IMG/VR virus record: IMGVR_UViG_3300015189_000035
Location: 1 to 36,337 of that record
Source: a virus
DNA: 36,337 nt
Strand: one strand, 5' to 3'
The stretch's first letter is position 1. Every line of letters starts with the position of its first letter. The position numbers and the translations under genes were made by a program. Positions 13,673 through 24,380 of the stretch are shown here, piece by piece. The notes below the pieces were generated by a model, which did no database searches, had not been told where the DNA came from, and saw only the letters and a list, made by a program, of their open reading frames with translations.

Positions 13673-13848
13673 GTACGGCATTCCAGATCCGATTTCGAGA
13701 CGACAACGGCAACCTGCTCACTCTCGGCGCGCGCGAGAAACGAGATCTCGAGGAAAAGCTGAAAGACCTTCTCGACGCGATCAATGCGGAGTTCGACACG
13801 TCGATCCGGTACCGGCTGAGCTATGGCGAGGAGGGCGACGATGTCTGA
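13669..13848 (+). CDS. small hypothetical protein
   Basis: 59 aa, ATGA overlap at start and 8-nt overlap with the next gene. FQIRFRDDNGNLLTLGAREK followed by a helix (RDLEEKLKDLLDAINAEFD). It looks like a small alpha/beta protein. Unknown role. Confidence 0.55.
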   Translation: MSTAFQIRFRDDNGNLLTLGAREKRDLEEKLKDLLDAINAEFDTSIRYRLSYGEEGDDV

Positions 13849-14053
13849 GCGGTGCGCATTCTGTGACGAGCCAGCCAACCGCGGCAAGTACGCCGGTCCG
13901 TGCTCGACATGCGGCGTGGCGACATGTCCAGCTCACACGTACTTCTACATCGACGACTCGAACATCGCGATCACGAACGGGGCACGCCCGACATGCCGTG
14001 CGCACGCCGAACGGCCCGAAACCATCACAACACCTCAGGATGCACGGCCATGA
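13841..14053 (+). CDS. small zinc-finger protein
   Basis: 70 aa. CAFC, CSTCGVATC and later CRAH give two potential zinc sites, similar to a small treble-clef or RING-like knot. GGAGGGCGACG precedes the ATG. It is directly coupled (ATGA) to the methyltransferase gene. Function unknown. Confidence 0.6.
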   Translation: MSERCAFCDEPANRGKYAGPCSTCGVATCPAHTYFYIDDSNIAITNGARPTCRAHAERPETITTPQDARP

Positions 14054-15297
14054 AGATCGGCTCCCTGTTCTCTGGGTACGGCGGGCTCGACATGGGCGTG
14101 CAAGCCGTGCTCGGTGGCGAGACAGCATGGTTCGTGGAGTTCGCGGAAGCGCCATCGAAGATCCTTGCGCACCACTGGCCCGACGTGCCGAACTACCACG
14201 ATGTGACGGCGGTGGACTGGTCGACGGTCGAGCCGGTGGACATCCTCACGGGTGGCTTCCCCTGCCAGGATGTGTCCCTCGCCGGCGCTCGAGCAGGGCT
14301 CATGGAGGGCACGCGCTCTGGGCTGTGGTCCGAATACGCGAAGGCCATCGACGTGTTGCGCCCATCACTTGTGCTGATCGAGAACGTGCGCGGGCTGCTG
14401 TCCGCCAGAACGATGGAGGAAGTCAATGAGGCGGATAGCGATCTGGAATGGGAGTCGGGAAGCGTGGGAGTCCCCGATGGGGTCGATCGACCTGTTCTCA
14501 ACGCATTCGGACGTGTACTTGGAGACCTGGCCGAGCTCGGGTACATGGGACGGTGGCTCGGCATTCGAGCTGCCGATGCCGGTGCTCCCCACGGCCGGTT
14601 CCGCGTCTTCATACTTGCCTACCCCGCAGGGCGGGAAGACACCGGAGCAAGTCGCGACGATGCGCGCGAAGGGGCATGGGGTCTGGAACCTGAACGAGGT
14701 GGTCTTCCCGACGCCCCGAGCCAGCCGGGGAGCACCGGGCACGGAGACGATGTATCGGCTCGGAGCAGTGCGCGACGACTCGACGCGACCGCAGGGACAA
14801 GTTCTGCTGAAGACGCCGACCTCGCAGTTGGGGGTGAACGGCGGCTCCCAGCACCCGGACAAGCGCAAGGAGGGCGGTCACGGACCGACGTTGGCCGACG
14901 AGGTGGAGCACCTTCTGCCTACTCCCGTTGTGACGGACGCTGCTGGAACGCGGAAACTCCACTGGCGCGAGGACCGCGAGAAGCGTGTAGCTGCAATGAG
15001 ATCGCGTGGGGTCCGTACGAACTAGCGATCCATCGTTGGGAAGGTGTCGCGGGGCGTTCCGCTCCTGCGCCAACACAGCCTGATGGCCGGGATGGTGCGC
15101 ACCGACTCTCTGCCGTGTTCGTCGAGTTCATGATGGGCCTGCCCGCCGGCCATGTCACAGACCCCGCGATCGGTCTGACCCGCAACGAGCAACTGAAGGC
15201 ACTCGGCAACGGTGTCGTCCCCCAGCAGGCAGCCCTGGCGCTGTCACTGCTAATGCATGAACCGCACCAAGCACGTACAGAGGATACGAACGCATGA
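14050..15297 (+). CDS. DNA (cytosine-5) methyltransferase
   Basis: 415 aa. Methyl-donor motif I is LFSGYGGLDMG (6-16), motif IV PCQ has catalytic Cys72 (TGGFPCQDVS), motif VI is ENV (111-113), motif VIII is GAPHGRFRVFILA (178-190) and motifs IX-X end in RNEQLKALGNGVVPQQAALA. The target recognition region (about 195-330) is low-complexity. Start at 14050 from the ATGA overlap. It uses S-adenosylmethionine to methylate cytosine C5, probably guarding phage DNA against host restriction; no cognate endonuclease is visible. A 199-codon ORF lies in its +1 frame, so part of this coding sequence is doubly constrained. Confidence 0.92.
   Translation: MKIGSLFSGYGGLDMGVQAVLGGETAWFVEFAEAPSKILAHHWPDVPNYHDVTAVDWSTVEPVDILTGGFPCQDVSLAGARAGLMEGTRSGLWSEYAKAIDVLRPSLVLIENVRGLLSARTMEEVNEADSDLEWESGSVGVPDGVDRPVLNAFGRVLGDLAELGYMGRWLGIRAADAGAPHGRFRVFILAYPAGREDTGASRDDAREGAWGLEPERGGLPDAPSQPGSTGHGDDVSARSSARRLDATAGTSSAEDADLAVGGERRLPAPGQAQGGRSRTDVGRRGGAPSAYSRCDGRCWNAETPLARGPREACSCNEIAWGPYELAIHRWEGVAGRSAPAPTQPDGRDGAHRLSAVFVEFMMGLPAGHVTDPAIGLTRNEQLKALGNGVVPQQAALALSLLMHEPHQARTEDTNA
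14426..15025 (+). CDS. nested +1-frame gene inside the methyltransferase, LPTP-repeat protein
   Basis: 199 aa, wholly inside the methyltransferase gene in its +1 frame. GGAGG (14415-14419) lies 6 nt before the ATG. The product has recurring LPTP-type phrases (SYLPTPQGG, VVFPTPRAS, LKTPTSQLG, LLPTPVVTD), plus TWPSSGTWDGGSAFELPMP and LADEVEHLLPTP. I recall such LPTP phrases from annotated phage proteins and from regions next to methyltransferases, so this frame does not look random. The two frames are linked because LPTPT in one reads ADTDG-like in another. Function unknown. It could be an artefact of biased codons in the target-recognition region, hence the moderate score. Confidence 0.5.
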   Translation: MRRIAIWNGSREAWESPMGSIDLFSTHSDVYLETWPSSGTWDGGSAFELPMPVLPTAGSASSYLPTPQGGKTPEQVATMRAKGHGVWNLNEVVFPTPRASRGAPGTETMYRLGAVRDDSTRPQGQVLLKTPTSQLGVNGGSQHPDKRKEGGHGPTLADEVEHLLPTPVVTDAAGTRKLHWREDREKRVAAMRSRGVRTN

Positions 15298-15788
15298 GTC
15301 ATTTCGCTAACCGCCCGATCCCGCCGAAGACGGCACGAAAGTTCGCCCTGGCCTATCTGTTGGACGAGGAGACTGGGTGCTGGAACACCACTTACTCGGT
15401 CGCCAAGCGCGGCAACGGCTACGCGCAGGCATCGTGGCAGGATGACGGGCGCGCTTACGGCACCGGGGCGCACCGGGCTGCCTGGACGTATTGGAATGGT
15501 CCGATCCCAGACGGGATGACGATCGATCACATGTGCAAAAACCGTGCCTGCGTAAACCCGGACCGTCTTCGGATGCTGACCAACTCGCAGAATGCGCGAC
15601 GGCAGTACGGCCGTGACTGGCCGCTCGGTGAGTGCATCAACGGCCACCCGGATTCCATGCAAGAGACCGTGCACTGGGCTGGCAAGACCCGTCAGATGTG
15701 CCGTCCGTGCCAGGACGAACGCAACCGCGTGGGCATGATCAAGATGAAAGCCAAACGTGAGGCTGAGAAGCAGGAGAAGGCCGCATGA
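15294..15788 (+). CDS. HNH homing-type endonuclease
   Basis: 164 aa, ATGA overlap with the methyltransferase. Contains TGCWNTTYSVAKRGNGYAQA, TGAHRAAWTYWNGPIPDGMT, the HNH core DHMCKNRACVNPDRLRMLT and a C-terminal zinc motif (CINGHPDS, CRPCQDER). These match phage-borne free-standing HNH nucleases that cut DNA lacking the gene. It is the intact relative of the frameshifted gene at 11234. It could also be a structure-specific nuclease. The C-terminus is Lys-rich and probably DNA-binding. Confidence 0.85.
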   Translation: MSHFANRPIPPKTARKFALAYLLDEETGCWNTTYSVAKRGNGYAQASWQDDGRAYGTGAHRAAWTYWNGPIPDGMTIDHMCKNRACVNPDRLRMLTNSQNARRQYGRDWPLGECINGHPDSMQETVHWAGKTRQMCRPCQDERNRVGMIKMKAKREAEKQEKAA

Positions 15789-23051: not shown

Positions 23052-23075
23052 AGCACCCCTTGTGGGTGCTTTTTT
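23052..23075 (+). terminator. intrinsic terminator between protease and capsid genes
   Basis: AGCACCC (23052-23058), a 5-nt loop and GGGTGCT (23064-23070), followed by five T. A textbook rho-independent terminator. It lies 36 nt before the capsid start, with no obvious new promoter between them. Confidence 0.85.
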
Positions 23076-23106
23076 GTTGCCCATTTCCCGAAAGGAGCAC
23101 TCACTC

Positions 23107-24351
23107 ATGAGTGCAGTAATCGAAGCCAAGCGCGCCATGGCGGAGCTTGGTACCAAGGCTCAGGACGTCCTGAAGGACGAAACCCTGACCCAGTCCGAGA
23201 AGATGGCCCGCCTCGACAAGTACCAGGAGGACCTGAAGGGGTACTCCGACACCATCTCGCTCCACGAGAAGGCGAACCAGTTCATCACCGGTGCGGATGC
23301 AGCGATCGATGCGAAGGCCGACCAGGAGCAGATGAGCGGTGTCGAGCGTCGTTCGTTCGCACGCCAGGTCATCGAGTCCGAGGCGTACAAGTCGATGGTC
23401 GCCGGTTCCTCGAAGGTTGGCTCGGTTGACGTGAAGGTTGCGGCAACCATCGATGAAGGCATCATCCCCGCCTTCTCCGGTGGTGCCGGCCTCGGCGGTC
23501 AGCTTGTCGCCCCGCAGCTTCTCCCGGGCATCGTCCCGCTGAAGTTCCAGCCCCTCACCGTCGCGGACCTCCTCGCGCAGGGTTCCGCTTCGTCGGCATC
23601 GATCTCCTACGTGATCGAGTCCGCGTTCCAGGACCTCACCGCGACCGTGCTGGAAAAGGGGACCAAGCCGCAACTCGACCTGACGCTGACCCGCCGTCAG
23701 GACAACGTCGTGAAGATCGCGAACGTTGCCAAGACGACCACGGAAATGTTCGAGGACGCACCGCAGTTCGAGTCGTACCTGCAGAACCGCATGGTCTTCG
23801 GCATCCAGCGTGTCGAGGAAACTCAGCTGCTCAACGGCAACGGCACCCCGCCGAACCTGCAGGGCATCCTGAACCGTTCCGGTCTGGCGACCACAGTCGT
23901 CACCACGGCGGGTCTGACTGCGCTGAAGGCGATTGAGGGTATCTACAACCAGATCACCGCCCTCCGCACGTCTTCGTTCGTCGAGCCCGACGCGATCGTC
24001 ATCCACCCCACGGATTGGCAGACGATCCGCCTCGGCAAGGACTCGCAGAACCAGTACTACGCAGGTGGCCCGTTCACCGGCGCGTACGGCAACACGCAGG
24101 TCCCGTCGAACCAGCAGCAGTTGTGGGGTCTGAAGGTTGACGTCACCACTGCGGTCGCGCAGGGCACCGTCCTCGTCGGTGGGTTCCAGGAGTCGGGTCA
24201 GATCTTCCGACGCCACGGAATCACCCTCGAGATGACGAACAGCAACGTGGACGACTTCGTCAACAACCTCATCACCGTGCGTGCTGAGGAGCGTCTCGCA
24301 CTTGCCGTGTACCGTCCGGCAGGTTTCGGAAAAGTTACGTTGACTGCCTAA
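23107..24351 (+). CDS. major capsid protein, HK97 fold
   Basis: 414 aa. AAAGGAG precedes the ATG at 23107. The first ~95 residues are a coiled-coil delta domain ([20 protein letters not shown]), which the protease removes. The rest reads like HK97-type phage capsids: [70 protein letters not shown] and [16 protein letters not shown]. It forms the icosahedral shell. Expression may be set by the terminator just upstream. Confidence 0.96.
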
Positions 24352-24380
24352 CAAAACCGGATGGTTGCTGCACTGGGAGC

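Follow-up and report, generated by a model that had tools for sequence, protein, structure and literature searches.

A gene nested in the +1 frame of a phage C5-cytosine methyltransferase gene, and a proposed two-chain enzyme

Multispecific phage C5-methyltransferases of the SPR and phi3T type carry, between motifs VIII and IX, exchangeable target-recognition modules some 40 aa long. Overlapping genes for two-polypeptide C5-methyltransferases are also known in principle; the small-subunit ORF of M.EcoHK31I is reportedly located inside the large-subunit ORF, in another frame. Both M.EcoHK31I and M.AquI consist of two polypeptides, and fragments of a C5-methyltransferase divided within the variable region can come together again (PMC3404938). 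The larger polypeptide of M.EcoHK31I (YGGCCR) has motifs I-VIII, as does the large subunit of M.AquI, whose small subunit comprises the distal variable region and motifs IX-X (PMC3404938). As in M.EcoHK31I, the phage locus described here appears to encode a second polypeptide in another frame within the first.

The locus and its two reading frames

The window, i.e. the whole stretch of DNA analysed (an IMG/VR virus record, 36,337 bases), originates from a tailed temperate phage with recognisable integrase, terminase, portal, major head protein and tape measure genes. The features of the locus are as follows:

14050..15297, plus strand: C5-cytosine DNA methyltransferase of 415 aa, frame 0 (alpha chain)
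14260-14268, plus strand: PCQ motif of the methyltransferase, residues 71-73
14415..14419, plus strand: Shine-Dalgarno GGAGG, 6-nt spacer to the nested ATG; signal and spacing match in the nearest relative, locus L056
14426..15025, plus strand: nested +1-frame gene of 199 aa (beta chain), phrog_1008 family; ATG at 14426, stop at 15023-15025
14434..14619, plus strand: doubly constrained core, with motifs VII-VIII in frame 0 and the WN...WE...ETWPSSG block in +1
14584-14610, plus strand: motif VIII, APHGRFRVF, frame 0, within the overlap
14615..15022, plus strand: LPTP modules of the nested protein, +1 constrained, starting at about 14615, 14705, 14807 and 14915
14641..14994, plus strand: frame-0 passenger linker of alpha, residues 198-315 (118 residues), open and predicted disordered
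15010..15258, plus strand: methyltransferase motifs IX-X, frame 0, residues 321-403, pLDDT 95-98

The frame-0 product matched Pfam DNA_methylase (1.2e-31) and phrog_363 (5.6e-71), its top solved-structure match was M.HhaI (M.HhaI fold), and the catalytic PCQ and ENV (residues 111-113) are both present. All motifs from I to X are carried in frame 0, with no variation across the alignment in motif VIII and IX-X. The preliminary description had thus been right to treat the methyltransferase frame as real and to place motif VIII inside the overlap.

Several neighbouring features were recorded as well. An HNH endonuclease gene (15294-15788; phrog_826, 5.8e-33) follows directly on the 3' side, starting within the methyltransferase stop codon in an ATGA overlap. 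Upstream, an ORF of 76 aa (13823-14053), rich in cysteine and with CxxC motifs but no PHROG match, overlaps the methyltransferase start by 4 bases, which suggests translational coupling. In the Gordonia phages Bibwit, Sitar, Lennon, Ailee, Inspectinfecti and Hans, the methyltransferase match is broken up into several pieces, and beneath the same match an endonuclease gene (HNH, LAGLIDADG or another type) is annotated, so that this gene appears to be a repeated target of homing-type insertions. Elsewhere in the window, the minus strand opposite the major head protein gene (23062-24351) has an open frame of 417 codons (23101-24354); such long frames often occur antisense to genes in GC-rich DNA.

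The nested ORF had been described as a 199-codon frame at 14415-15025, in +1 and wholly inside the methyltransferase gene. Its length, frame, nesting and stop agree with the coordinates found here, but position 14415 belongs to the ribosome-binding site, and the start codon is at 14426. GGAGG was indeed found 6 nt ahead of the ATG, and the LPTP-like phrases do recur (LPTP, FPTP, LKTP, LPTP). Such phrases had been linked to annotated phage proteins, and they fit a known phage protein family, phrog_1008, which the nested protein matched with an E-value of 8.7e-13 over profile positions 85-212 of 329, including the conserved block and the LPTP region. No match to an endonuclease family was obtained for the nested ORF with Pfam and PHROG profiles, and the window's beta bears no methyltransferase motif. 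The LPTP-type nested proteins that were tested matched phrog_1008 but no Pfam family, and NCBIfam returned nothing for those tested.

Considered alone, the window does not distinguish this ORF from chance. In codon shuffles that preserved the frame-0 protein and codon usage, the longest open stretch in +1 averaged 170 codons; the window has 215 (p=0.16), and its core had no +1 stops where 0.97 were expected (p about 0.31). The significance of the ORF comes not from its length but from its ribosome-binding site and, above all, from its homologues. The same window values are what can be said for regarding the +1 ORF as no gene, merely a by-product of a conserved frame-0 protein and GC-rich codon use. 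Every comparative test presented below contradicts that idea, and we consider it practically ruled out.

Homologues and constraint on the two frames

A tblastn search with the nested protein gave matches in 189 phage records, which come almost exclusively from actinophages. When 11 related loci were read in three frames, one and the same DNA stretch encoded VLGDLADLGYDAQWRGLRAADVGAPHRRERVFILA (methyltransferase motifs VII-VIII) and, in +1, YSETWPTSGMTRNGVAYELPTWAPRT...LPTP-like phrases. As single-sequence locus searches gave one locus and none, profiles were used, whereby loci were gathered with a +1 profile and, separately, with a frame-0 profile alone to avoid bias toward the +1 frame. Among 198 loci with a recognisable motif VIII, +1 was open around this motif in nearly all, and no homologue with a clean empty site was present. 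Motifs IX-X are in frame 0 in 124 loci ("fused", the window's class) and in the +1 frame, on the nested ORF, in 63 loci ("split"); the latter mostly have a frame-0 stop 15-38 codons past motif VIII. Databases usually list just one of the two proteins, but second genes are already annotated in some records (Charm gp80/gp79, Hammer gp91/gp90, Babsiella gp54/gp55 and Gryphonian).

This distribution bears on whether the nested ORF could be an inserted out-of-frame homing endonuclease gene, comparable to the ShiLan domain found in actinophage methylases. Homing insertions are known in phage methylases (PMC11855218), and in the window an HNH gene lies directly downstream. However, the nested ORF overlaps motifs VII-VIII, which are common to all homologues, so nothing has been inserted there, and its presence is not patchy, since almost every homologue has it. 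An HNH/ShiLan-type insertion was rejected given the lack of any endonuclease match for the nested ORF, and it remains the least credible of the explanations weighed here.

Stop avoidance was assessed by shuffling synonymous frame-0 codons, with the core running from 48 codons upstream of the start of motif VIII to 12 codons downstream of it. The core contained no +1 stops in split viral loci (97.5 expected; N-terminal control 190 against 189.7) or in fused viral loci (32.3 expected; control 64 against 77.3), and a single one in fused chromosomal loci (31.1 expected; control 64 against 70.7). The result was the same in 81 loci picked by frame 0 only and reduced to 80% identity, with 0 core stops against about 100, and with 157 against 180 in the N-terminal part of the same genes. 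The preliminary description had named +1 stops in homologues as a refuting condition; none occurred in the core of any nonredundant viral homologue. Because homologous loci share ancestry, these counts are not fully independent. The ordinary methyltransferases L222 and L223 behaved as controls; L221, L224 and L225 carry another nested +1 ORF and so are not clean negatives, which makes the N-terminal part of the homologues the better control. That other nested protein, found in phage C5-methyltransferase genes at L221:1652-2071, L224:1655-2125 and L225:1802-2260, has the pattern SLSDILE...YFLS.KAC.GILRRAEKRGK.LPE, and at two of these three loci it matches phrog_16143. Phage C5-methyltransferases may commonly have nested +1 partners.

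Codon choice points in the same direction. The Leu of ADLG is CTC in 31/31 fused viral loci (43% background) and in 14/16 split loci (13% background). A Shine-Dalgarno sequence, a start codon and an open +1 frame occurred together in 101 of 145 loci, compared with 6.6 expected from shuffling. Viral loci often encode the frame-0 peptide VRG-LLSA with AGR Arg and AGT Ser codons, yielding an AGRGG-type Shine-Dalgarno and a GTG start; in the fused class these choices were made in 20/34 (10% expected) and 20/34 (3.9% expected), respectively, and many such viral loci have a +1 stop immediately ahead of the internal start. The signals are GAAGGAG with ATG in chromosomal loci and GGAGG with ATG in the window and L056.

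The positions at which the window differs from L056, counted per frame-0 codon position 1/2/3, show where each frame is constrained. The N-terminal region (.12/.13/.53) follows ordinary frame-0 coding, the core (.19/.18/.34) has the reduced third-position change of DNA coding in both frames, and the LPTP region (.46/.10/.06) has the pattern of +1 coding. This flip was repeated against L057, L012, L016, L017, L018 and L136. With changes concentrated at frame-0 codon position 1, it is +1 that is constrained in the LPTP region, and a frame 0 that is less conserved there than +1 cannot be what conserves +1, so that this pattern refutes the by-product idea. The earlier statement that the ORF does not look like random translation is upheld by the comparison of homologues rather than by length, and the variation at synonymous sites, which it had singled out for checking, is reduced at third positions. 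About 600 bp had been proposed to be doubly coding: two coding frames do run through the overlap, but strict double constraint is confined to about 190 bp around motifs VII-VIII. From comparative sequence analysis it is near certain that the nested ORF is a protein-coding gene.

Frame 0 is not free to decay either. In the LPTP region of fused viral loci, frame-0 stops numbered 0 against 66.2 expected if +1 alone mattered (0 against 2.96 in the window itself), and in split loci 341 against 317.6. Their absence in fused loci and near-expected number in split ones indicate that frame 0 is held open where motifs IX-X follow. The comparison is partly circular, as an open frame 0 is what defines the fused class; a stop-truncated frame-0 C-terminus was found in 2 loci only. 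At the level of sequence, then, beta is under protein-coding selection with its own conserved translation start, and frame 0 is kept open through the overlap.

A programmed ribosomal frameshift past motif VIII, joining motifs I-VIII to the +1 LPTP region in a single long polypeptide, would fit the split loci, where frame 0 usually stops shortly after motif VIII and IX-X are in +1. It would not explain why +1 is already stop-free and codon-constrained about 50 codons upstream of motif VIII, nor the conserved Shine-Dalgarno and start upstream of that motif, which a later shift does not need. The sequences around the frame-0 stops showed no slippery site in common, and frame 0 is open throughout in the fused loci. 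We regard a frameshift as highly improbable.

The arrangement recurs, judging by the sequences, in phages and bacteria of at least four phyla. Gryphonian, a Paenibacillus phage, has an annotated nested +1 CDS whose C-terminus contains LNPDWVECLMGFPIGWTD, a motif-IX-like block, and its frame 0 keeps motifs I-VIII and X. Open +1 stretches of 203-379 codons within the methyltransferase gene, each with p<=0.007 by codon shuffling, were found in Salmonella SEN5, Pseudomonas Haboob, Acinetobacter ABMM1, Bacteroides BS-TP4, Lacticaseibacillus R9.1 and a Klebsiella record. The motif-IX-like block is borne on the +1 ORF in phages of Firmicutes, Proteobacteria and Bacteroidota, and phrog_1008 is also matched by nested proteins of the Paenibacillus, Salmonella, Pseudomonas, Acinetobacter, Bacteroides and Klebsiella records and by a chromosomal one. 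Chromosomal actinobacterial methyltransferases have a compact nested protein of about 150 aa with FRTPLASDSSRGGESL..V.ARRGTIALSHQIIDLALHGP and its own GAAGGAG and ATG start (L146:2892-3329; similar in L154, L161, L163, L195, L203, L205 and L213), conserved across Microbacterium, Leucobacter, Actinomyces, Brevibacterium and others.

A possible role for the nested chain

In the AlphaFold2 model of the window methyltransferase, most of motifs I-VIII fell in blocks of 90-98 and motifs IX-X at 95-98, and residues 198-315 had a pLDDT of only 32-47, in the same stretch where +1 is the selected frame. No folded target-recognition domain was found between motifs VIII and IX in this model. Given the low pLDDT there, alpha by itself appears, as far as a predicted structure can tell, to be without a folded domain for target recognition. 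The model of the nested protein was poor except for short N-terminal strands (mean pLDDT 63) and provides no evidence of fold, and a PDB search with the nested-protein profile found no solved relative (best E 0.34); with such low confidence and no solved relative, a recognition fold of beta has not been shown.

The explanation we favour, with a probability of about 0.75, is a two-polypeptide C5-methyltransferase made from overlapping frames, in which the nested chain docks on alpha and supplies target recognition; there is no peptide, ribosome-profiling or enzymatic evidence for it. Ribosomes starting at 14050 would produce alpha, with catalytic motifs I-VIII, a disordered passenger linker and then motifs IX-X, and those starting at the internal ATG 14426 by way of GGAGG would produce beta, with a short conserved N-terminal block followed by the LPTP modules. 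Beta would most likely dock on alpha between motifs VIII and IX and provide sequence recognition, with motifs IX and X borne by either chain depending on the lineage. The outcome for the phage would be an active orphan methyltransferase, which would shield its DNA from host restriction. Binding of beta to alpha, target recognition by beta and protection from restriction are all inferred. The subunit role is based on the fusion of beta to motifs IX-X in relatives, the missing recognition domain of alpha and the precedents; against it counts the retention of motifs IX-X by the window's alpha, which might consequently work alone. According to the preliminary description, the second protein may shape the target-recognition region. 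Past motif VIII (about 14620-15000) the constraint is indeed on +1, but "shaped" is too weak a word, as the region is most likely, by inference, the second protein itself.

The chief competitor is that beta is a real translated protein with an independent function (e.g. DNA-binding, anti-restriction or regulatory) and merely shares methyltransferase DNA. The absence of methyltransferase motifs from the window's beta and the complete set I-X in frame 0 of alpha are both compatible with this. As opposed to that, the same ORF bears the motifs IX-X that are missing from alpha in 63 relatives, Gryphonian-type genes have a motif-IX-like block on it, it is always found inside a methyltransferase gene of this kind, and alpha is without a folded recognition domain. 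We leave an independent protein a minor chance.

The LPTP region is modular and resembles, by analogy only, exchangeable recognition modules. The modules have a median length of 41 aa in split loci, and module families reappear at differing positions among loci, including in other phages. Across loci they are read in +1 or in frame 0, with only 1/434 matches in the third frame; some frame-0 matches represent not modules but the WGxYxxAIxRW segment at the C-terminus. A tentative extension, which we think may well be wrong, is that the modules (about 41 aa) are target-recognition cassettes shuffled among phages by recombination, that indels shift them between the chains and alter specificity, and that the overlap is kept across several bacterial phyla. 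Within that extension, the near absence of third-frame modules would mean that small indels move modules from one chain to the other.

Outside small viruses, two conserved proteins are rarely encoded by a long overlap on the same strand, and this one, recurring in many phage and bacterial methyltransferase genes with one product usually unannotated, is a widespread test case for the origin and upkeep of overlapping genes. Should recognition reside on the nested chain, studies of many orphan phage methyltransferases have looked for specificity in the wrong frame, and the annotated chain cloned alone could be inactive or mis-specific.

Comparison with described systems

No description of this overlap in phages was found in the open-licence literature searched. 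Within that literature there is no account of LPTP modules alone on a nested chain with motifs IX-X on alpha, of the spread across phyla or of a modular LPTP region. The family phrog_1008 (329 positions) is named "DNA methyltransferase", implying a complete enzyme, but the nested proteins that match it are without catalytic motifs I-VIII, and it is not described as an overlapping partner. Enzymes of the SPR and phi3T type carry their modules in one frame of one chain, whereas here the modules are of the LPTP kind and their recognition role is unproven. The ShiLan type (PMC11855218) likewise places a second protein in a different frame of a phage methylase gene; it is, however, a patchy inserted homing element, as opposed to an ancestral overlap with conserved motifs VII-VIII and no HNH.

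The 63 split loci are like M.AquI in being cut between motifs VIII and IX, but they overlap extensively in two frames, and the window itself is not split and has no separate IX-X small subunit. In M.EcoHK31I motif IX is on the small subunit and X on the large one, which also has the predicted recognition domain, leaving just motif IX on the smaller subunit; in the window, alpha has both IX and X, the nested chain consists of LPTP modules only, and recognition is proposed to reside on beta. Closer to M.EcoHK31I in layout are the Gryphonian-type genes, in which alpha has motifs I-VIII and X and the nested chain carries the motif-IX-like block.
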